DNA from: Aeropyrum sp.
GTDB taxonomy: Archaea > Thermoproteota > Thermoprotei_A > Sulfolobales > Acidilobaceae
Reading direction: 5' to 3'
Length of the DNA stretch: 49,582 nucleotides
NCBI GenBank assembly: GCA_015523465.1
Contig: WAKF01000038.1
Span: 1-49,582, forward strand
Positions 36,839 through 48,072 of the stretch are shown here, piece by piece. The notes under the pieces were generated by a model. The model was not told where the DNA came from. It did not search any database and was given only the letters and a program-made list of their open reading frames with translations. The stretch's first letter is position 1. Every line of letters begins with the position of its first letter. The position numbers and the translations under genes are program-made.

Positions 36839-38155
36839 TCACCCTACGAGTCCTAACTTGGATCTGCTATGTAAAGAGACTAGTGCTTGTAGCAGCATGT
36901 AGACTCCAGGTCTCCCTCTATCCTCATCAATGCCCCCCCTTAGCATAGCCAGATAATTAATTGCTAGGCCCAGCTTACTACCCGCCCCTCGGGCTAACTC
37001 GTCAATCTCAGAATAAGGATCCTCTCCGTCGAGCTTAGTTATACGGGTTAGCGATTTCCTTTTTAAGCCAAGATACTCACTTACTGTATCACCCACTTTC
37101 TCGCCCATTAGCCTTCCCGTAGTGAACTTACCCCCTATTACAGTGAAGAGACCTTCTACCTCGTTATGCTTAACTACCATGAAATCCCTCGTAACAGGGC
37201 CCCCGGGAATCCTTATTAGAGGTCTTACACTAGTATAAGCCCTAAGCACGGGAGTCTTAGCAAGGGCTGGTACCATGAGTGAGCCCTCCTTTGTCAGGAA
37301 GTCGATATCCTCGGGCTCTGGGCTCGCAGACTCTACATCGTCTATTAGAAAAGCGGTTGTGCCCATTATCGACGTGTTACTGTAGGGGACTAGTATATCG
37401 CCCTCGGAGGGGGGCCTCATCCTATTGATTACCCGTCTAGTAAGCCTTCTCGAGTATACAACCATTGTCCCTGCGGTAGGTAAGACTTCCACCTCAACCC
37501 CAGCTTTACGGGCGAACTCTGCAGCCCAGGGGCCCGTAGCGTTAACTATGGCCTTGGCTTTAAAGGTATATTCTCTCCCTGTGAGCCTGTCAACTGTGTA
37601 TATGGCATTATTGCTATCTCTTATCTCCAAGCCCTTAGCCTCTAATCCTTCGAGGATCAAAGCTCCATTCTTGAAAGCAGTCAACGCTATGCTTGCTACT
37701 AAGTCTCTAGAGTAGACTACCTTATCAGGAACCTCTACGACGAGCCGAGCTTCACTCGTCAAGTTAGGCTCCTCCTTCACAGCTTCACGTGGGTCCCATT
37801 CCTTAAACGTGATTCCAGTCCTCTTCAAACCGCTTATAAAGTCTTCATAGTATTCTTCGTCGCTCCTAGTAACAGCTACGAAGAAGCCCCCCGTATCCTC
37901 GATTGCATGCGGGGCGATCTGAGAGAGTATCTTGTTTTCCTCGGCGCACTCCCTAGCTGCGGGGGGGTCCGTGACGACATACCTAGCTCCACTATGGAGT
38001 AGCCCGTGAAACTTGCCGCTTGTCTCCCCTCCTAGGACCTTTCTCTCTATAAGGAGTACTCGTAGGCCCCTTAATGTAAGGTCTAGTGTAGCCCATAACC
38101 CTGAAATCCCTCCGCCCACCACGATCACGTCGAACTCGTCTTGCAAGACCATCAT
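36839..38155 (-). CDS. FAD-dependent glycerol-3-phosphate dehydrogenase (GlpA-like)
   Basis: This 438-residue flavoprotein starts with the FAD motif DVIVVGGGISGLWATLDL and has the GlpA/GlpD-type TSGKFHGLLHSGARYV, AIVNATGPWAAEFA, and GLFTVIGGKFTTGRLMGEK. The reaction expected is oxidation of sn-glycerol-3-phosphate to dihydroxyacetone phosphate, with electrons passed to a quinone or another acceptor. It is shorter than bacterial GlpA/D. The cysteine-rich GlpC-type subunit is missing; the SRPBCC protein may replace it. A TTTTTTATATG (minus strand, near 38180-38190) gives a leaderless start at 38155. Confidence 0.82.
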   Translation of the reverse strand: MMVLQDEFDVIVVGGGISGLWATLDLTLRGLRVLLIERKVLGGETSGKFHGLLHSGARYVVTDPPAARECAEENKILSQIAPHAIEDTGGFFVAVTRSDEEYYEDFISGLKRTGITFKEWDPREAVKEEPNLTSEARLVVEVPDKVVYSRDLVASIALTAFKNGALILEGLEAKGLEIRDSNNAIYTVDRLTGREYTFKAKAIVNATGPWAAEFARKAGVEVEVLPTAGTMVVYSRRLTRRVINRMRPPSEGDILVPYSNTSIMGTTAFLIDDVESASPEPEDIDFLTKEGSLMVPALAKTPVLRAYTSVRPLIRIPGGPVTRDFMVVKHNEVEGLFTVIGGKFTTGRLMGEKVGDTVSEYLGLKRKSLTRITKLDGEDPYSEIDELARGAGSKLGLAINYLAMLRGGIDEDRGRPGVYMLLQALVSLHSRSKLGLVG

Positions 38156-38280: not shown

Positions 38281-39432
38281 ATGGTGTGGCGTGCTGCTTT
38301 CGAGTGGTACTTAGTAAGGCCCGACGCTATAACTGTGTGGAGCGAGTATCCTGAAGTTGAAGAGAGGCTTTCATGGTACGTCAGGGTTATGAGGGGCGAA
38401 GCGCCGCCAAAGTATAAGATAGTGAGGTCGATGGAAGCCCCCTTTAAGGACATTGGGGAGTTAAAGGAGGCGTCTACGGAGGACCTCTGGAGGGTTCATG
38501 GTAGGCTTACCAGCGAGTTTAGGAGGCTCTGGCGTGAGCTGAGGAATGGGGGTAGTCTTGACTTTAAGGTCTCTGATGTGGAGCCTAGCCTACTAGACGT
38601 TAAGATCGAGCTTATCTACAGGCTCTCCAGCCCCTGTTACCTATGCGAGAGGAGATGTGGGGTTGAAAGGGCTGAGGGTAGGAGGGGCGCCTGTAGGCTG
38701 GCTCTGGAGACCTATGTTCACAGCGCCTTCCTACACCTAGGGGAGGAGGCTCCGTTAGTGCCTAGCGGCACCATATTCTATGGGGGCTGCAACTTTACGT
38801 GCGTCTTCTGTCAGAATTGGGATGTGAGCCAGTGGAAGGCGCGTGATGCCTACAAGGTGACTCCTAGGGAGCTGGGGGAGATCCAGGATAAGCTGGCGAG
38901 GCTGGGGGCTAGGAATATCAACCACGTGGGCGGGGACCCGGTGCCTAGCCTCTACGCTATAGTAGAGAGCATGAAGTATGCCAGTCACAGCAAGCCTCAG
39001 CTATGGAACAGTAACATGTATATGAGCGACGAGGCCTTCGAGATACTAGCAGACCTCATAGACATCTGGCTCCCCGACCTAAAGTTCGGTAGCGACAAAT
39101 GCGCTTTGAGGCTGGCGGCAGTGCCGAGATACTGGGAGGTCACAACGAGGAACATAAAGAAGGCTATAGAGCATGGCGACATGATCATAAGGCACCTGGT
39201 AATGCCGGGCCACATAGACTGTTGCACCATACCAGTCCTAGAGTGGATTGCAAAGGAGATACCCAGGGAAAAGATATTAGTCAACGTCATGGACCAGTAC
39301 CACCCGGACAACCTAGTGCTAAAGATGCCTTGGAAGTGGAGGGAGATCGCTAGGAGGCCTACGGAAGAGGAGATTAGGAGGGCTAGGGAGTACGCCTCTA
39401 AGCTGGGCCTACTATGGGAGCCCGTAGCTTAG
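38281..39432 (+). CDS. PflX/AmrS-like radical SAM protein
   Basis: This protein is 383 residues from ATG 38281, or 387 from ATG 38269. The radical SAM site is GGCNFTCVFCQNW. An upstream cluster PCYLCERRC...GACR (four cysteines) matches the PflX/AmrS group. The first 110 residues have no match that I can name. Relatives' substrates are unknown. It overlaps the convergent ANL-like gene by four bases at the 3' ends. It is a second member of the group found at 9437, but lacks the N-terminal zinc ribbon. Confidence 0.72.
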   Translation: MVWRAAFEWYLVRPDAITVWSEYPEVEERLSWYVRVMRGEAPPKYKIVRSMEAPFKDIGELKEASTEDLWRVHGRLTSEFRRLWRELRNGGSLDFKVSDVEPSLLDVKIELIYRLSSPCYLCERRCGVERAEGRRGACRLALETYVHSAFLHLGEEAPLVPSGTIFYGGCNFTCVFCQNWDVSQWKARDAYKVTPRELGEIQDKLARLGARNINHVGGDPVPSLYAIVESMKYASHSKPQLWNSNMYMSDEAFEILADLIDIWLPDLKFGSDKCALRLAAVPRYWEVTTRNIKKAIEHGDMIIRHLVMPGHIDCCTIPVLEWIAKEIPREKILVNVMDQYHPDNLVLKMPWKWREIARRPTEEEIRRAREYASKLGLLWEPVA

Positions 39433-40952
39433 AGGTACCCCGCTATCTCGACCCGCCTCAGCTTCTTATAGAACGCTACCCGCGAGTTCACGTAACTCAG
39501 CAGCTCGTCGCTGCTAGTCTGAGACCCCTCCCGAAGCCATACTCTAGCCACCGGAACTTGTCCGACCTCGCCGGCGGGCTCACCGTAGACTTCGACCTTG
39601 ACCACGTCTGGGTGTGTCTTCAACACGGCTTCTAGGTCCCCGAGCAGCACGGCATATCCTTTATACTTTATAATCCTTTTCTTAATCCCCCTAAAGAACA
39701 TGACGCCATCCTCCCTCACATGGATTATATCGCCAGTCCTAAGCCACCCGTTAATGAACGCCTTCTCATTCTCCTCGGGAAACTCATAGCCCTTCATAAC
39801 CCAGGGGGCCTTAACAAGTAGCTCCCCGGTAGAGCCTAGGGGTAGGTCCTCCCCCCTCTCAGGGTCGATCAGCTTCACGTCAACGCCTGGCAGGGGCACG
39901 CCGATCGTCCCCTCGACGTCGGCTAGGGCTGGCGTCTGGAGGGTTAGGAACATGGTCTCGCTCATACCATAGCCCTGCAGTAGGGGAGTGCCGGTGTGCT
40001 CTCTAAACCTGAGCTGTAGCTCGGGGCTTAGTGGCGCCCCTGCAGAGAGTGCGTGCCTAAGCCTTATCCCTCTGCCAGCGTCTAGGAGCTGCTGGAACAT
40101 TAAGGGCACCCCGGCAATATAGGATACCTCTCCCGAGGCTACCAGGCTCGCGGCAATCTGGGGATTCCACCTAGCCATAGCGTATACCGGAGCCCCCTCT
40201 AGGAGAGGAGCTATGAGGGACGCCTGGAAGCCTAGCACGTGAGTGAATGGCGTTGCTAGGAGACTCCCCTCACCACCGTCAATACCTAGCACGGTAGAGA
40301 AGACCTTACTCACAGTCCACAATCCCCCGTGACTGTGTATAACCTGCATAGTCCTCCCGGCGATCCCGGCATAGTAGATTGAGAACGCATCGTCCCCGGG
40401 CCCTAGACCAGGGTCATCCAGGGATCCCGTGTACGATGCCGCGTCCTTTAGAGTGTAGATCCTCTTCCCCTCCACCTTAAACATGGAGTCTCCAGGGGCG
40501 AGCTCTACAATGCTAGCCTCGGTAGACTCTAGGATAGCATTAAGGCTTCTCAACAGGAAGGTTCGGCTGCCAGCAACCACAACTATACTCCTACTTTCAA
40601 GCTGAAACTTCAGGTCCTCCCCTATGGTTAGAGGGTCTATGAGCACCAGCCTAGACCCCGCTGCCATAGCGGCGAGGGAAAAGGATATCGCCTCTATAAG
40701 GTTCTCCGAGGCAACTGCTACTTGAGCCCCTCTCCCAGCCCCCAGACCCTGAAGCCAAGCACCAACTCTTACAATAAAGTCTGAGAGCCGCCTCCAACTA
40801 TAGCAGTACCCAGTCTCGGCCTGAGTAAGAGCACACGATTCCCTTGCTCCCATAGCCTTGACCACGCTAGTTACAGGTTCGAAGCTCCCAATTACTTTGT
40901 CTACATCTAGGCTAGCGGCCTTCTGGGGCCAAAACCTGCTCCACGGGCGCAA
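39429..40952 (-). CDS. Acyl-CoA synthetase-like (ANL) protein, likely catalytically degenerate
   Basis: This 507-residue protein has the ANL fold: GYGMSETMFLTLQTP, WLRTGDIIHVREDG and a KGYAVLLGDLEAVL hinge region. Two catalytic features are changed. The P-loop reads YYAGIAGRTMQ (193-203) instead of YTSGTTGxPKG, losing the lysine and the Ser/Thr residues. The protein also ends at KKLRRVEIAGYL, without the terminal G-K catalytic lysine segment. It may bind acyl or CoA ligands without making acyl-CoA, or act as a regulator. It is divergent from the liv-type operon across a shared AT-rich promoter. The start is TTG 40952. Confidence 0.7.
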   Translation of the reverse strand: MRPWSRFWPQKAASLDVDKVIGSFEPVTSVVKAMGARESCALTQAETGYCYSWRRLSDFIVRVGAWLQGLGAGRGAQVAVASENLIEAISFSLAAMAAGSRLVLIDPLTIGEDLKFQLESRSIVVVAGSRTFLLRSLNAILESTEASIVELAPGDSMFKVEGKRIYTLKDAASYTGSLDDPGLGPGDDAFSIYYAGIAGRTMQVIHSHGGLWTVSKVFSTVLGIDGGEGSLLATPFTHVLGFQASLIAPLLEGAPVYAMARWNPQIAASLVASGEVSYIAGVPLMFQQLLDAGRGIRLRHALSAGAPLSPELQLRFREHTGTPLLQGYGMSETMFLTLQTPALADVEGTIGVPLPGVDVKLIDPERGEDLPLGSTGELLVKAPWVMKGYEFPEENEKAFINGWLRTGDIIHVREDGVMFFRGIKKRIIKYKGYAVLLGDLEAVLKTHPDVVKVEVYGEPAGEVGQVPVARVWLREGSQTSSDELLSYVNSRVAFYKKLRRVEIAGYL

Positions 40953-41010
40953 CTAAATGCACCAGGAAGACCCCCATTACGAAGCTTCTTTTAAAGGAGT
41001 AATAAGAAAA

Positions 41011-41021
41011 TATATATTATA
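41011..41021 (+). promoter_or_regulatory. TATA box for the liv-type operon
   Basis: TATATATTATA is followed by TTGGAGGGTG and ATG 41046, with transcription start expected near 41042. The spacing supports translation from 41046, so the N-terminal extension of LivG is probably made. On the minus strand the same AT block can serve the ANL-like gene. Confidence 0.55.
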
Positions 41022-41045
41022 CCTTTTGGAGGGTGTAGCCGGGGT

Positions 41046-41966
41046 ATGTACTATACACTTAACCCCCCTGCAACCAATTTCAATGAACACCTCATTAACC
41101 CTAATTGGGTGCACTTAGTGCCGCATCCACAGCCTTCTATGGAAGAGGCTAAAGTCGACATGGTCTGGGATAAATCAAGCTTGTACAAGCGTGTCTGGGG
41201 TATGGGAGAGCGCATACTATGGGCTGAGGGGCTACACCTCAGCTTTGGAGGCGTTAGGGCGCTTGATGGAGTCTCCATAGTGATTAGGAAGGGAGAGCTT
41301 GTAGGGCTTATAGGCCCCAACGGCGCCGGGAAGACGTCTCTACTCAACGTTATAAGCGGCATTTACAGGCCTGAGAGGGGCCGAGTATACTTTAAGGGTA
41401 AGGATATCACGGGGATGCCGCCTCACGAGAGGGTTAAGCTAGGCATAGCTAGGACCTTCCAGCACGGAGAGATGTTCCACGGTATGACGGTCCTTGAAGC
41501 GATAATGTTGAGGCTTCACCCCTGGCATAGGGGTAGCATAATAGAGGCCGCGCTATGGGGTTTCAGAGCGAAGAGGTGGGAGGTTGAGGCTAGGGAGAGG
41601 GCTGAGCACATTATAGACTTGCTGGAGCTCCAGGAGTATAGGCATAGGCCTGTGGGGTCTCTACCTCCAGGTATACAGAAGAAGGTAGACCTAGCTGCAG
41701 CCCTAGTCCAAGACCCGGAGGTCATTCTTATGGACGAGCCTATGGCCGGCCTCTCGAGGGAGGAGAAGGAAGACATTATCAGGGCCATAATAGAGGTGAG
41801 GGAGACTAGGGGTACTACTATGGTGCTTGTCGAGCACGATCTCGAGGTTGTAAGTGACATCTGTGATAGAGTCATAGTTATGGATAGGGGTAGGGTGATC
41901 TTCGACGGTCACCCCGAGGATGCTGTAAGGGATGAAGCAGTGATAACTGCTTATATAGGGGGTTAG
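41046..41966 (+). CDS. livG: ABC ATPase, LivG-type, with N-terminal extension
   Basis: This 306-residue ATPase has Walker A GPNGAGKTS, a signature LPPGIQKK in place of LSGGQ, Walker B VILMDEPMAGL and the H-loop VLVEHDLEVV. The liv-family block GIARTFQHGEMF is present. The first 50 residues precede the usual start (GMGERILWAEGLHLSFGG) and are not family-like. It couples ATP hydrolysis to uptake with LivH/LivM. The acyl-CoA synthetase gene follows seven bases after the stop. Confidence 0.88.
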   Translation: MYYTLNPPATNFNEHLINPNWVHLVPHPQPSMEEAKVDMVWDKSSLYKRVWGMGERILWAEGLHLSFGGVRALDGVSIVIRKGELVGLIGPNGAGKTSLLNVISGIYRPERGRVYFKGKDITGMPPHERVKLGIARTFQHGEMFHGMTVLEAIMLRLHPWHRGSIIEAALWGFRAKRWEVEARERAEHIIDLLELQEYRHRPVGSLPPGIQKKVDLAAALVQDPEVILMDEPMAGLSREEKEDIIRAIIEVRETRGTTMVLVEHDLEVVSDICDRVIVMDRGRVIFDGHPEDAVRDEAVITAYIGG

Positions 41967-41972
41967 CACGCG

Positions 41973-43922
41973 ATGAAGGCGGAGGACTTCCTCGAGAGGC
42001 CTTGGGAGGAGGTGGAGTACGAGAGCACTTTTCCCTGGTTGCTAGCGTGGAGAGCCCGCAAGAAGCCCGGGGATGTCGCGTTTAGGTGGAAGCGCTATGG
42101 GATCTGGAGGAGATACACTTGGAAGGATTATTATGAGAGGGTTGTCTATGCAGCCCTGGCTTTGGAGGAGATGGGGCTGGGTATTGGAGATACAGCGGCG
42201 TTCATAACTTTCAACAGGCCTGCATGGGTGATATACGAGGTTGGCGCCCACCTTCTCGGAGCCAAGACTGTAGGCATATATCGTGACAGCCTGAGCGATG
42301 AGGTAGGCTATGTGCTAGACCGTAGCGACGCTTCAATAGTGCTAGTTGAGGGGCAAGAACAGCTAGATAGAGTATTAGATTCTGGCGTTGATGTCGAGAA
42401 GATCATTGTTGACGAGGCTAAGGGCCTTCACCAGTATCGTGACATGATCGGCAAGAAGATAGTGACGTTCGGAGACCTCATGGAGCTTGGTAGGAAGCTT
42501 GCAGTGAAGAGGGGCGAGGGGTTCGTTAGAAGGAAGCTGGAGGACCTAGAGCCAGACATGGTATGCGGCCTCTTCACCACAAGCGGGACTACAGGGCCTC
42601 CGAAGCTTGCAATGCTATCTTTTAAGAGCATGCTAGCAATGGCTTACCAGCTAAACCAGGTGGACCCTGTAGAAGAGGATTGGGAGTACGTTTCATTCCT
42701 CCCTACAGCGTGGATAGGCGAGCAGATGATGAGCATCTCCCTACACCTGCTAGCAGGGTTTAGGGTTAACTTCCCAGAGACCCCTTGGACGATGTGGAGC
42801 GACTTTAGGGAGATAGCCCCCCACTTCCTATTCTCGCCCCCTAGGGTATGGGAGCGGATAGCTAAGGATATTATGGCTAGGGTGGAGGATGCGGACCTTA
42901 TAAAGAGGCTTGCCTTCAAGATAGCCTACGCTATAGGCATGGAGGCTGCTAAGAGGAGGCTAGTTAAGGGTAGGAGCAAGCCCCCTCTACCCTGGAGGGC
43001 TCTAGCCTATATTGCCTACTGGCTAGCCCTCAGGGCCGTGCTAGACAAGACCGGGTTGAAGAGGGTTAGAAGGGCTTACACAGGCGGTGCCATGATCGGG
43101 GAGGACTACGTCCTGTTCTACCACGCGATAGGGGTTAACCTCAAACAGATCTATGGGCAAACCGAGGTAGCTGGGATAGCTGTCGTGCACCCAGATGATG
43201 ACGTGAGACCTGATACTGTAGGCAAGCCGCTTCCGCTCACTGAGGTTAAGATAGCTGAGGACGGCGAGATACTGCTCCGTAGCCCGGCGGTCATGAAAGG
43301 CTACTATGGGAACGAGGAGGCCACTAAGAAGGCTTTCAAGGATGGGTGGCTTAGGACGGGCGATGTGGGGGTGTTAACGGATGATGGCCACTTAAAGGTA
43401 TTGGATAGAGCTAAGGAGTTGATTAAGCTAGCAGATGGCACCGTAGTGGCCCCCCAGGTAATCCAGAATAAGCTGAAGTTTAGCCCTTACATAGGGGAGG
43501 CGGCTATAATAGGCTCAGGGAAACCCTACCTGGTAGCACTGCTCAACATAGACTTCGAGATTGTATCTCGCTGGGCTGAGAGGAGGAGGATAACGTTTAC
43601 AAGCTACTCAGACCTATCCCAGAAGCCCGAGGTCCTACAGCTCCTTAAGAGGGAGGTTAGAAAGGTGAACTCTAGGCTCTCCGAGAAGGAGAGGATTAAG
43701 AAGTTCGCTAGCCTCTTTAAGGAGTTCCACCCTGACGACGGAGAGATGACTAGGACTAGGAAGCTTAGGAGGGCTGTAATAGAGAGGAGGTATGCTGGGT
43801 TGATAGAGGCTATGTATAGGGGGGAGAGGGAGTACGAGCTCACAGTGCCTATGAAGCTCGAGGACGGGCGGATAGTTGAGGTCACTAAGAGGGTTTCGAT
43901 CGTTGACGTTGATGAGGGGTGA
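41973..43922 (+). CDS. Long-chain-type acyl-CoA synthetase (AMP-forming)
   Basis: This 649-residue protein is of the FadD/bubblegum-like ANL group. The P-loop is intact (FTTSGTTGPPKLAML), IYGQTEVAG is the adenylate-binding motif, and GWLRTGDVG and the C-terminal GEMTRTRKLRR are present. The enzyme joins a carboxylic acid to CoA at the cost of ATP. It is inside the liv-type operon, between LivG and LivH, where it can trap an imported acid. The acid could be a fatty, aromatic or branched-chain acid; chain length is not readable. Confidence 0.9.
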   Translation: MKAEDFLERPWEEVEYESTFPWLLAWRARKKPGDVAFRWKRYGIWRRYTWKDYYERVVYAALALEEMGLGIGDTAAFITFNRPAWVIYEVGAHLLGAKTVGIYRDSLSDEVGYVLDRSDASIVLVEGQEQLDRVLDSGVDVEKIIVDEAKGLHQYRDMIGKKIVTFGDLMELGRKLAVKRGEGFVRRKLEDLEPDMVCGLFTTSGTTGPPKLAMLSFKSMLAMAYQLNQVDPVEEDWEYVSFLPTAWIGEQMMSISLHLLAGFRVNFPETPWTMWSDFREIAPHFLFSPPRVWERIAKDIMARVEDADLIKRLAFKIAYAIGMEAAKRRLVKGRSKPPLPWRALAYIAYWLALRAVLDKTGLKRVRRAYTGGAMIGEDYVLFYHAIGVNLKQIYGQTEVAGIAVVHPDDDVRPDTVGKPLPLTEVKIAEDGEILLRSPAVMKGYYGNEEATKKAFKDGWLRTGDVGVLTDDGHLKVLDRAKELIKLADGTVVAPQVIQNKLKFSPYIGEAAIIGSGKPYLVALLNIDFEIVSRWAERRRITFTSYSDLSQKPEVLQLLKREVRKVNSRLSEKERIKKFASLFKEFHPDDGEMTRTRKLRRAVIERRYAGLIEAMYRGEREYELTVPMKLEDGRIVEVTKRVSIVDVDEG

Positions 43923-43927
43923 CTTTA

Positions 43928-44821
43928 ATGGCTTTAGAGGCTGTCGATGTAGAGACGTGGTCTAACCTGATATTCCAGGGCGTCCTCTTAGGGATATTAT
44001 ACTCGCTCATAGCGATGGGATATAACTTGGTCTACAGGGCCAATAAGTCTATAAACTTCGCGGTGCCCCAGGTAGTGCTACTAGCCGCCTACACTGCGCT
44101 CATAACAGCTACTGCTACAGGTAGGCTCGAAGTCGCACTAGCCTCTGCAATAATAGTCTCGGTCGCAGTCAGCATGGCTATAGAGAGGGGTGTTGCCAGG
44201 CCTCTCCTAGGGAGGCCTCCAATAGCCCTTATAGGTGCCACGCTGGGTGTGTTCTACGCGCTTAAAGGGGTAGTTCTTGTAGTTGGTGGCAGCGAGGTTG
44301 CAGTCCTCCCTCTAGACATAGACTACTATAGGCTCGGAGCCTTAACTGTAGCAACCAACGACCTCATATCCCTCCTAGGTGCGATACCTGTGCTCGCCGG
44401 GGTTGTACTACTACACAGAAAAACGAGTTTCGGCGCCGCTATGAGGGCTGTAGCTGAGGATGCTGAAGGAGCAGCCGCCTACGGGCTCCCAGTTAGGAGG
44501 CTAATGCTGGCTGGGTGGGCCCTCGCGGGTCTGGTTGGAGGTCTAGGGAGCATACTGCTTGCAGTGAAGACTCAAGTATCGCCGGACCTCGAGTACTATG
44601 CCATCAGGGCGCTGGCTGCGAGCCTTATAGCGGGGCTTGACAGTCTGGGGGGCGTGCTTCTAGGCGGGATAGTACTAGGGCTTGCTGAGCAGCTTGCAAG
44701 CAAGTTCTTAGACCCATACCTCCCCGGCATCGGGAGCGATATAGCCTTCCTACTCCTACTACTCATCCTATTCGTGAAGCCCTACGGGTTCTTCGGTAGC
44801 GAGAGGATCGAGAGGGTGTGA
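43928..44821 (+). CDS. livH: ABC permease, LivH-type
   Basis: This protein is 297 residues from ATG 43928, behind GGGGTGA; the frame extends to GTG 43919. It has about eight membrane helices and the LivH-type IFQGVLLGILYSLIAMGYNLVYRA and GLDSLGGVLLGGIVLGLAE (quoted in part). It forms half of the pore. It overlaps or abuts the synthetase stop and is followed three bases later by LivM. Confidence 0.88.
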   Translation: MALEAVDVETWSNLIFQGVLLGILYSLIAMGYNLVYRANKSINFAVPQVVLLAAYTALITATATGRLEVALASAIIVSVAVSMAIERGVARPLLGRPPIALIGATLGVFYALKGVVLVVGGSEVAVLPLDIDYYRLGALTVATNDLISLLGAIPVLAGVVLLHRKTSFGAAMRAVAEDAEGAAAYGLPVRRLMLAGWALAGLVGGLGSILLAVKTQVSPDLEYYAIRALAASLIAGLDSLGGVLLGGIVLGLAEQLASKFLDPYLPGIGSDIAFLLLLLILFVKPYGFFGSERIERV

Positions 44822-44824
44822 GCC

Positions 44825-45862
44825 GTGCCTGCGGGGGTGTTCAAGGAGACTTATGAAGGCGATATGGCGTTCATAAGATACCCTATACACAAGGCTGCGC
44901 TGGTACTAGCAGTCATAGCAGGTTTAAGCGCCCCCCTACTCTTAGACACTTACTACTTGAACCTTGCTATAACGGCCCTCATATTCTGGGTAGCAGTCAT
45001 CGGCCTTAACATAACAGTGGGCCTTGCAGGCCAAATTTCCCTTGCCCAGGCAGCATTGATGGGAGTCGGAGCCTATACTGTAGCTTTCGCAGCCCTCAAG
45101 CTGGGCGTTAATGTTGTGCTAGCTCTACCCCTAGCAGGTATAACCGCTATGATCATAGGCCTAGTGTTGAGCCTGCCTAGCTTCAAGCTGAAGGAGTACT
45201 ATCTGGCGATGGCTAGCCTCGCCGCACAGCTACTCCTAGAATACGCCTTCTCGCGCATAGACCCGGACCAGTACACACCCATACCCCCCGAGGCTAAGAG
45301 GCTAGCCTCAATAGACTTAAACGAGCCCGAGGCCCTCTACTACTTCACGTTCATAGTAGCGGCTTTGATGGCGCTTGCTGCGGGTAACATAGCAAGGAGC
45401 AGCTATGGGAGGGCTATGAAGGCTGTAAGGGATAACGATGTGGCTGCTTCCATAGTTGGAGTAAACGTGCCCCTAACCAAGGCAATAGCCTTTGGCATCG
45501 GAGGATTCTATGCTGGCATAGCTGGAGGCCTCTATGCAATATATAGTGTGGGGATAGGCTGGGAGGCGTTCACCCTAGTTAACTCAATAGAGCTTCTTGG
45601 CATGGTGCTCATAGGCGGCCCTGGAAGGGTGGTATGGGGAAGCTTGCTGGGCGTGCTTGTTTTGAGGACTGGGTGGACGCTGCTTGAGAGCAACCTTGTA
45701 CCTATACTAGCTGCAATGGGGTTCTCAGCCTTCGCCTCGGCTATAAAGTACATCGTGCTAGGTACCCTGATAACGGTAGTAATAATCCTGGAGCCAGAGG
45801 GTCTCATAGCCGTGCTTAGGAGAGTGAAGGAGTACTTCAGGCTATGGCCCTACAGCTACTAG
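44825..45862 (+). CDS. livM: ABC permease, LivM-type
   Basis: This 345-residue protein has the LivM signature GLAGQISLAQAALMGVGAY and GRAMKAVRDNDVAASIVGVN, with about ten membrane helices. It pairs with LivH. The start is GTG 44825 after GAGGGTGTGAG. A 76-base gap with a TTTTAAAAG element (45902-45911) precedes the binding protein, which may have a second promoter. Confidence 0.9.
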   Translation: MPAGVFKETYEGDMAFIRYPIHKAALVLAVIAGLSAPLLLDTYYLNLAITALIFWVAVIGLNITVGLAGQISLAQAALMGVGAYTVAFAALKLGVNVVLALPLAGITAMIIGLVLSLPSFKLKEYYLAMASLAAQLLLEYAFSRIDPDQYTPIPPEAKRLASIDLNEPEALYYFTFIVAALMALAAGNIARSSYGRAMKAVRDNDVAASIVGVNVPLTKAIAFGIGGFYAGIAGGLYAIYSVGIGWEAFTLVNSIELLGMVLIGGPGRVVWGSLLGVLVLRTGWTLLESNLVPILAAMGFSAFASAIKYIVLGTLITVVIILEPEGLIAVLRRVKEYFRLWPYSY

Positions 45863-45938: not shown

Positions 45939-47279
45939 ATGGAGGGAGGGGGTTTGGCGCGTCAAAATACCCTTTACATAGTCCTAGCAGCCCTCGTAAT
46001 CATAATAGTGTTAGCGGGAGCCTACTTCCTGCTAGCTGGTAGAGGAGGCGAGATGCAAGAAGAGACCACTCCCGCCGAAGCAACCCCTACAGCAGGCGAG
46101 GCGGCTCCCAAGGAGGAGGCTAAAGTAATAGAGATTAATGTGGGCTTGCTGGTTGACGAGACCGGGCCCACGAGCGACGTCGGTAAGGGCTATGCTAGGG
46201 GTGCTGAGGCAGCCTTCAAGTATTTCAACGAGAAGGGAATCTATACTAAGGATGGAGTGAGGGTTAAGATAAACTATATTAAGAGGGACTACGCCTACAA
46301 CCCCACGCTAGCCGAAGAGTTCTACAGAGAGTTTAGAGACAGGTATAATGTCATAGCAGTCGTGGGCTGGGGTACCGCTGATACCGAGAAGCTCTCGGAC
46401 CAGGTTGCTAGGGATAAGGTGGTTTACATTTCAGCCAGCTACTCAGCCAAGCTGGTAGTGAAGCCCTACAACTTCTTCCCAGCGCCCGACTATAGCACGC
46501 AGGCCTGCTCAGGGCTCCAATGGCTTGCTACGGAGTACGGGGCTGGCAAGATAGCCCTAGCATACGACCATAAGGTGGCATACAGCCGTAGCCCCATATC
46601 AGCCATAAAGGAGGCTGCCAAGGCGCTGGGCATGGAGGTTGTGGGCGACTTCGACCTACCGCTAAGGGCTACTGAGGCCGACGCTGAGAGGATTGCGAGG
46701 GAGATGAAGGCCGCAGACCCAGACTATGTGTGGTGTGGAAACACCATTAGCAGTTGCAGTCTACTAGCTAGAGCTATGGCCAAGGTAGGCTTGGACGCCG
46801 TGCTACTCTCCAACGTGTGGGGCTTCGACGAGAGGAGCCCTAACCTGGTAGGCGAGGAGGCCTATGGTATGGTAGCCGGCATAAGCCCCTTCCTCTACCC
46901 GATGTTCGCCTCCGGGGTTGAAGCCTACAACGTGATATACGAAGCCGCCTCTATGGCCGGCGTGCCCAAGGAGGAAGTAACCCTGCGCTTCGTCCAAGGC
47001 TTCCTCAACGTGTGGCTGCTGGTAAAGGCTATAGAGGAGGTTACATCGCAGGACCTACTCGAGAGGAAAGGTGAGGCGTTGAAGGAAGTGCTTGAGAGTA
47101 GGACCTTCGACTTCGGAGGTATAACAGCGGCCCCCTTAAGGTTCCAGGAAGGCTGGCACGTGCCCTACAAGACCGTCTTCATAGTATTCCTCGCCGAGGA
47201 TGGAAGCCTCCAGTTGAAGGGTAAGTTCACAGCGCCGGAGGCTATAGACTGTGCCAAGGTGACTATAGAAGGAGGGTGA
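45939..47279 (+). CDS. Substrate-binding protein of the liv-type transporter
   Basis: This 446-residue protein has an N-terminal membrane helix (LYIVLAALVIIIVLAGAYFLL), a Thr/Pro/Ala/Glu linker, and a periplasmic-type leucine-binding domain beginning NVGLLVDETGPTSDVGKGYARG. It is anchored at its N-terminus, unlike the C-terminally anchored protein at 31671. Length and fold match the LivJ/LivK family. The ligand is unknown; the operon suggests an organic acid rather than only an amino acid. Confidence 0.87.
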   Translation: MEGGGLARQNTLYIVLAALVIIIVLAGAYFLLAGRGGEMQEETTPAEATPTAGEAAPKEEAKVIEINVGLLVDETGPTSDVGKGYARGAEAAFKYFNEKGIYTKDGVRVKINYIKRDYAYNPTLAEEFYREFRDRYNVIAVVGWGTADTEKLSDQVARDKVVYISASYSAKLVVKPYNFFPAPDYSTQACSGLQWLATEYGAGKIALAYDHKVAYSRSPISAIKEAAKALGMEVVGDFDLPLRATEADAERIAREMKAADPDYVWCGNTISSCSLLARAMAKVGLDAVLLSNVWGFDERSPNLVGEEAYGMVAGISPFLYPMFASGVEAYNVIYEAASMAGVPKEEVTLRFVQGFLNVWLLVKAIEEVTSQDLLERKGEALKEVLESRTFDFGGITAAPLRFQEGWHVPYKTVFIVFLAEDGSLQLKGKFTAPEAIDCAKVTIEGG

Positions 47280-47286
47280 GCAGTTA

Positions 47287-48072
47287 GTGCCGCCAATGCT
47301 GACAGTGTCTAACGCCGAGATAATGTACCACCCCTACATACTGGTGATTAAGAACCTTAGCTTGGCTGTGGAGAAGGGAACCATAACCTGTATTTTAGGT
47401 CCTAACGGGGCGGGCAAGTCTACAACCCTCAAGGCGATATCGGGGGTTATAAAATATGAGAGGGGGAAGGTGACAAGGGGCTCAATATCGTTTGAGGGAG
47501 AAGACATTACTAACAGGGAGCCCGACGACATAGCTAAGAGGGGAGTTATATATGTTATGGAGGGTAGAAGGATCTTCAAGGAGCTCACGGTCAAGGAGAA
47601 CATAGACGCAGTCGCCTATACTACGGGGGCGGGGCCTGACGAGGTAAAAGCGGTTCTAGACTACTTCCCCAGGCTCAGGGAGCGATTCTCTGAGAGAGCG
47701 GGAAACCTGAGTGGCGGGGAACAGCAGATGCTAGCCATAGCGCTAGCGCTTTTACACAAGCCTAAGCTCTTAATGTTAGACGAGCCTAGCCTAGGGCTTG
47801 CCCCCAAGGTGGTATCGCAGCTCTACTCAACTATTGTAGAGTTACACCGTAATGAGGGGATCACTATACTTCTGGCGGAGCAGAACGCCCGCAAAGCGCT
47901 AGAGATCTCAGACTACGGCTACGTAATGGAGAATGGGAGGATCGTTACTGAGGGGCCTGCAGATGTCCTACGTGAGGATAAGGATATAAGGGAGTTCTAC
48001 CTAGGCATGGGTAAGGCGAGGGCTGGCTATAAGAGCGTGAAGTGGTATCGTAGGAAGAAGAGGTGGGTCTAG
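47287..48072 (+). CDS. livF: ABC ATPase, LivF-type
   Basis: This 261-residue ATPase has Walker A GPNGAGKST, the canonical signature LSGGEQQML, Walker B LLMLDEPSLGL and the LivF block VMEGRRIFKELTV. It is the second ATPase of the importer. It follows the binding protein by seven bases and ends the operon. The frame may start at GTG 47287 or ATG 47296. Confidence 0.9.
   Translation: MPPMLTVSNAEIMYHPYILVIKNLSLAVEKGTITCILGPNGAGKSTTLKAISGVIKYERGKVTRGSISFEGEDITNREPDDIAKRGVIYVMEGRRIFKELTVKENIDAVAYTTGAGPDEVKAVLDYFPRLRERFSERAGNLSGGEQQMLAIALALLHKPKLLMLDEPSLGLAPKVVSQLYSTIVELHRNEGITILLAEQNARKALEISDYGYVMENGRIVTEGPADVLREDKDIREFYLGMGKARAGYKSVKWYRRKKRWV

Follow-up and report, generated by a model that had tools for sequence, protein, structure and literature searches.

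What is an ANL-fold protein doing beside an importer operon that already encodes an intact acyl-CoA synthetase, when its own ATP phosphate loop has been replaced? ANL enzymes are well-studied two-step catalysts, and one chain normally carries out both half-reactions by swinging its C-terminal domain. We pursued this question in a stretch of 49,582 nucleotides from Aeropyrum sp. (contig WAKF01000038.1), referred to below as the window. The gene occupies 39429..40952 on the reverse strand, begins with TTG, encodes 507 aa and shares its last 4 nt with a convergent radical SAM ORF. We use c0 as the label for this degenerate ANL family and c2 for the liv-operon-type synthetase family. By fold and descent c0 is an ANL protein: Pfam detected AMP-binding (PF00501, 1.3e-52) and AMP-binding_C (PF13193, 7.3e-9), both above cut-off, and together with full-length model matches this defines an AMP-binding N-domain followed by a small C-domain. 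The AMP-binding_C match stops at profile position 65 of 76, and the chain itself ends in ...VAFYKKLRRVEIAGYL, ahead of the A10 P-x4-G-K element.

Divergently from c0, a liv-type operon runs on the forward strand. It opens with a LivG-type ATPase (41046..41966) and continues with c2 (41973..43922), a LivH-type permease (43919..44821), a LivM-type permease assigned by position and gene cluster (44825..45862), a Liv-type substrate-binding protein (Peripla_BP_6; 45939..47279) and a LivF-type ATPase (47287..48072). The c2 protein, a long-chain-type acyl-CoA synthetase of 649 aa and the candidate partner of c0, carries both the P-loop TTSGTTGPPK and the C-terminal segment TRTRKLRR, which bears out the earlier claim that the importer operon encodes a normal synthetase. 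Between the two transcription units lies a 93-bp AT-rich spacer (40953..41045), the presumed site of both promoters. A promoter region shared by c0 and the importer, as the sequence-only reading had proposed, is plausible in the window given this length, composition and divergent arrangement, but it does not explain the link between c0 and ligases in general, since relatives with a co-directional arrangement occur. Elsewhere in the window, a GlpA-like FAD protein (36839-38155; 438 aa against a 530-position model, TIGR03377 at 371 bits, below cut-off) is followed by a CoxG-like protein.

We examined the nucleotide site by aligning c0 with ordinary ANLs. In the A3/P-loop (residues Y194-Q203, YAGIAGRTMQ; 40344..40373, reverse strand, with a pattern match at 40351-40373), the canonical T-S-G-T-T-G-x-P-K is replaced by Y-A-G-I-A-G-R-T-M, read as YYAGIAGRTMQ in the window. 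None of the 49 aligned family rows fits the A3 pattern [ST][ST/G]G[ST]TGxPK; all 49 instead read Y-A/S-G-I/V-A/V-G-R/K-T-M/L/E. The P-loop had been described as lacking both its lysine and its Ser/Thr residues; the lysine is indeed gone, but a threonine is present, T201, at the canonical Pro position in 49/49 rows. The A8/hinge (residues R421-G432, RGIKKRIIKYKG; 39657..39692, reverse strand, placed by alignment) shows a further loss that had escaped the sequence-only reading: the canonical Asp-Arg has become Gly-Ile/Val, and an Asp/Glu has become Arg426, while the A8 lysine, K429, is retained. The reported absence of the terminal G-K segment extends to the whole family, as the A10 P-x4-G-K lysine was found in 0/49 rows; nine GK strings do occur and fall, by our own reading of the rows, ahead of the last helix.

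The lost residues have fixed substitutes. We compared 59 c0 rows with 28 ordinary ANLs of related archaea. Y194 and T201 are present in 59/59 c0 rows, where ordinary ANLs have Thr (27/28) and Pro (25/28), respectively; A198 (56/59) likewise stands in place of Thr (27/28), R200 is found in 57/59 rows with Lys in the other two, and position 202 is M/L/E in c0 and Lys in 27/28 ordinary ANLs. An added histidine, H206, occurs in 57/59 rows and also in 6/28 ordinary ANLs. Around A8, G422 (58/59) replaces Asp (22/28), position 423 is Val in 55/59 rows (Ile in the window) and Arg in 28/28 ordinary ANLs, and R426 (58/59) replaces Asp (21/28). The site is thus rewired rather than eroded. The adenine/ribose motifs, A5 aromatic-G-x-T-E and A7 T-G-D, are kept (position 331 is Thr in 45 rows and Ser in 4; T406 is found in 48/49), and G196, G199, H238, Y328-G329, E332, G407-D408, K425, K429, K431 and K496 are invariant in 49/49 rows. 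K429 falls at the position of the A8 lysine, K443 in luciferase, which takes part in the second half-reaction.

Because the ATP phosphate loop, the A8 Asp-Arg pair and the A10 lysine are all gone, c0 would be unable to make an acyl-adenylate. In a review of aryl-CoA ligases (PMC8388817), large activity losses are listed for A3 Thr, Gly and Pro mutants, the A8 Arg is described as contacting the ribose, and the A10 lysine as the key catalytic residue of adenylation. Judged from these data and the c0 motifs, adenylation by c0 is unlikely.

Are these losses a property of one gene or of a family? When 60 relatives were searched at the protein level, 48 contained ANL matches, and a large share of these matches were ordinary. 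Thirty loci were retrieved; 24 of them (L001-L024) belong to the YYAGIAGRT type, can be aligned over their whole length and have about the same C-terminal end. We therefore rule out a sequencing error hiding a longer C-terminus, because the orthologs stop at the same place. Searching the genomes of 84,980 species with two peptide patterns yielded 46 loci, all in archaeal records of Thermoproteota or Caldarchaeum-like groups. The exact c0 loop motif was found in 41/398 Thermoproteota genomes and 17/164 genera, with a backwards control of 0 in every row. The 49-row alignment (A2) contains 38 invariant columns; it omits 21 of the 46 pattern loci, of which 10 lie on contigs already included, 2 are near-duplicates and 9 are split or at contig edges. 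In a tree of 79 rows, the 59 c0 rows all fall on one side of a single branch (SH-aLRT 100), opposite 20 ordinary ANLs. The clade is nearest the FadD-type rows and separate from c2 and the ACS type, although the placement nearer FadD-type than c2 has a branch support of 88 and involves long branches; the idea that c0 arose by recent duplication of the liv-operon synthetase is accordingly unsupported. The dN/dS ratio was 0.05-0.13 in five of six ortholog pairs, the sixth (window versus L002) being saturated. The c0 proteins form a single monophyletic family under strong purifying selection.

Several members deviate individually. One has a C-terminal CxxC...CxxC extension resembling a zinc ribbon (L067:1337-2968), and a contig-edge member reads HYAGVAERT, with the invariant loop Gly changed to Glu (L105:1-558). 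In L003:1440-1530 there is no in-frame ATG, GTG or TTG between the stop and the conserved N-terminus, which may mean a non-standard start codon or an error in the assembly. In four Vulcanisaeta JCM drafts (L093, L094, L097, L099), the c0 gene and many of its neighbours are broken into short ORFs, which look like frameshift errors. By keyword, the open-access literature returned no description of a c0-like family; most subscription papers lie outside that coverage.

An AlphaFold2 model of c0, built from the 49-row alignment, reached a pLDDT of 95.4 and a pTM of 0.93. It superposes end to end on 4-coumarate:CoA ligase (4CL) 3a9v (TM 0.85, 3.0 Å over 503 columns), and on 5bsr with AMP and CoA bound (TM 0.83, 3.5 Å). 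Luciferase in its second conformation (4g37) gave TM 0.78 and 4.4 Å, and the adenylate-forming luciferase 4g36 and ATP-bound MatB 4fut each gave TM 0.71, at 11.2 Å and 11.6 Å, respectively. A second aligner recovered the same fold, with N-terminal-domain-only matches ranking equally high. The structure matches list ordinary ANLs only, with no solved structure of a c0 relative among them. The fit to a thioester-like pose is suggestive only, because the ordinary paralogue modelled as control (6 rows) was too poor to serve as one (pLDDT 73.4, P-loop and A8 stretches <50), and because AlphaFold2 is reported to put an ordinary AcsA in the adenylation pose (PMC11255334). Archaeal/bacterial FadD-type acyl-CoA synthetases and 4CL (3g7s, 3a9u/3a9v, 5bsr) resemble c0 along the entire two-domain ANL fold, with TM values reaching 0.85, and in having A5 Y-G-x-T-E, A7 T-G-D and the A8 lysine. 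They differ from c0, which lacks the Lys and polar residues of A3, Asp-Arg in A8 and Gly-Lys in A10 and has fixed substitutes instead; identity is ~18-26% by the second aligner.

We next consider where c0 genes lie in relatives. The c2 motif was found in 18/398 genomes, and in 16 of these 18 c0 lies nearby, so the pair seen in the window does recur, with ACS- or PaaK-type ligases near c0 elsewhere. Twelve of the 18 carry the exact c0 motif, with a c0-c2 spacing of 3.3-8.8 kb in 12/12; a variant-loop c0 adjoins c2 in three more (G226, G290, G318), and in G355 a c0 fragment lies near c2 where the contig stops. Within the stretch fetched, no c0 was seen in G158 or G216, nor beside the second c2 copy of G318. 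Acidilobaceae and Pyrodictiaceae-like genomes show c0 diverging from the liv operon; those of Calditenuaceae and Thermoproteaceae have it on the operon's strand.

In Vulcanisaeta, f22 and Caldisphaera, c0 sits directly 3' of an ACS-type ligase on the same strand, and in the PaaK context it lies next to one PaaK-type ligase with a second PaaK-type opposite. The gaps depend on a mechanical choice of start codons: read so, the ACS-type and c0 ORFs overlap in the Vulcanisaeta rows, abut in the f22 genome and are 16-20 bp apart in Caldisphaera, and c0 is 46-72 bp from its PaaK-type neighbour. In L069, L107, L108 and L119 (Vulcanisaeta-type), the ACS-type ligase and c0 are overlapping consecutive ORFs on the same strand and are likely translationally coupled. 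Caldisphaera-type L045:8560-17032 has c0 adjoining two ACS-type ligases, two thiolase-like proteins and ChsH2 zinc-ribbon/OB proteins. In L038:7449-14005 (also L039 and L042), c0 is flanked by two PaaK-type ligases, alongside proteins that we read from their sequences as GNAT-like (no Pfam match) and amidohydrolase-like.

We chose 12 genomes, each of which has 6-22 AMP-binding matches. The nearest other match on the same contig was ≤1.4 kb from c0 in 9 of them, a spacing whose chance under random placement is 1.4-3% for each of the 9; in G015, G055 and G138 the nearest other match was >100 kb away. Contexts could be scored for 55 of the 59 c0 rows, the other four being on short contigs: c2 in 22, ACS in 8, PaaK in 3 and none in 22. 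On the c0 tree this amounts to 8 changes for the four contexts and 3 for the ACS context. The 22 rows with no ligase within 9 kb include every Sulfolobaceae row and several Desulfurococcales and Acidilobaceae rows, so a partner in cis is not obligatory. The Sulfolobaceae neighbour clusters (beta-RFAP synthase, rRNA methyltransferase and others, the latter named by our own reading) gave no functional lead.

Taken together, c0 probably does not adenylate, keeps an adenosine pocket, has fixed new residues and recurs beside synthetases of three classes; its simplest reading is therefore a conserved ANL paralogue that does not adenylate and that cooperates with AMP-forming acyl-CoA synthetases. We hold this tentatively, at a little short of an even chance, with both the partnership and the ligand deduced rather than observed. 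Under this proposal, c0 would bind the adenylate, AMP or acyl-CoA made by the partner synthetase, held in a thioester-like pose; in the window, the partner would be the synthetase of the liv-type importer operon, and c0, as a regulatory or scaffold subunit, would tune or channel how the imported acid is activated. Of the three roles first suggested (ligand sensor, chaperone-like partner or unusual enzyme), the partner is favoured because c0 is associated with active-looking synthetases of three classes in many relatives (c2, ACS and PaaK contexts, not Sulfolobaceae and several other groups); the other two stay as rivals. Against the partner role stand the ligase-free 22/55 rows and the 2/18 c2 genomes without c0. 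Gene neighbourhood, moreover, speaks for a partnership only indirectly, and a plain scaffold would have no need of the Arg/Lys, Thr and His that are fixed where the phosphate site used to be.

Known systems offer partial parallels. The second FLD domain of eukaryotic DIP2 (PMC9342972) is likewise an ANL fold without adenylation motifs beside an intact ANL module; unlike c0, its modules are in one chain and its A5/A7 are degenerate, whereas c0 is encoded by its own gene, retains A5/A7 and has lost A3, the A8 Asp-Arg and A10. In Bacillus subtilis (PMC11255334), AcuA is encoded divergently from the AMP-forming synthetase AcsA, which it binds and controls, a gene layout like that of c0 in the window and a relationship like the one proposed for it, but AcuA is a lysine acetyltransferase of unrelated fold. 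The PaaK-type ligases AjiA1/NatL2 (PMC8388817) are reported as an ANL variant without domain alternation, held in one conformation, as c0 may be; they differ in that their source describes them as ligases whose C-terminal loop is swapped.

The rival that survives best, though we consider it unlikely, is an enzyme of thioesterification only, in which c0, permanently in a thioester-forming pose, would take a neighbour's acyl-AMP and transfer its acyl moiety to CoA or a different acceptor. What was lost belongs mostly to the first half-reaction, K429 and the A5/A7 motifs show little or no variation, and the model appears to fit second-conformation structures, 4g37 better than 4g36. Yet the partner synthetases look capable of both halves, leaving no evident need for a second enzyme; the acyl-AMP would have to exit one enzyme and enter another; and the A8 Arg, described as a ribose contact in PMC8388817, is gone.

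Only slightly less probable is an unusual active enzyme, in which Y194, R/K200, T201, H206 and R426 would form a new anion site, for another nucleotide or a CoA phosphate, serving a new reaction. Such a role would account for Y194, A198, R200, T201, H206, G422 and R426 each being found in 56-59 of 59 rows, and for replacements that cluster at the P-loop and A8, where the 28 ordinary ANLs are mostly classical; however, no known chemistry is indicated, and the structure matches are ordinary ANLs only. A ligand sensor without a ligase partner, for example one that lets liv-operon transcription respond to acyl-CoA or AMP, is improbable: the divergent, promoter-proximal position of c0 in the window and in relatives and the intact adenine/ribose motifs would suit it, but the Pfam search of c0 found no DNA-binding or signalling domain, and the co-directional ACS, PaaK and liv arrangements need no shared regulator. 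Decay or mis-sequencing of a synthetase gene, which the lost catalytic motifs could suggest, is refuted because the same losses and the same end are conserved across 49 rows of a single old clade, with invariant columns and low dN/dS, and its probability is negligible.

A bolder reading, which is possible but doubtful, is that c0 represents a new ANL class whose ATP-phosphate site has been rebuilt as a fixed new anion site and which would act only on ready-made adenylates or acyl-CoA from a dedicated active synthetase, with the half-reactions divided between two ANL proteins in these archaea or controlled across the pair. We caution against annotating c0 genes as acyl-CoA synthetases. The c0 family offers a natural test of whether the two half-reactions are separable, or can be controlled by a pseudo-subunit.
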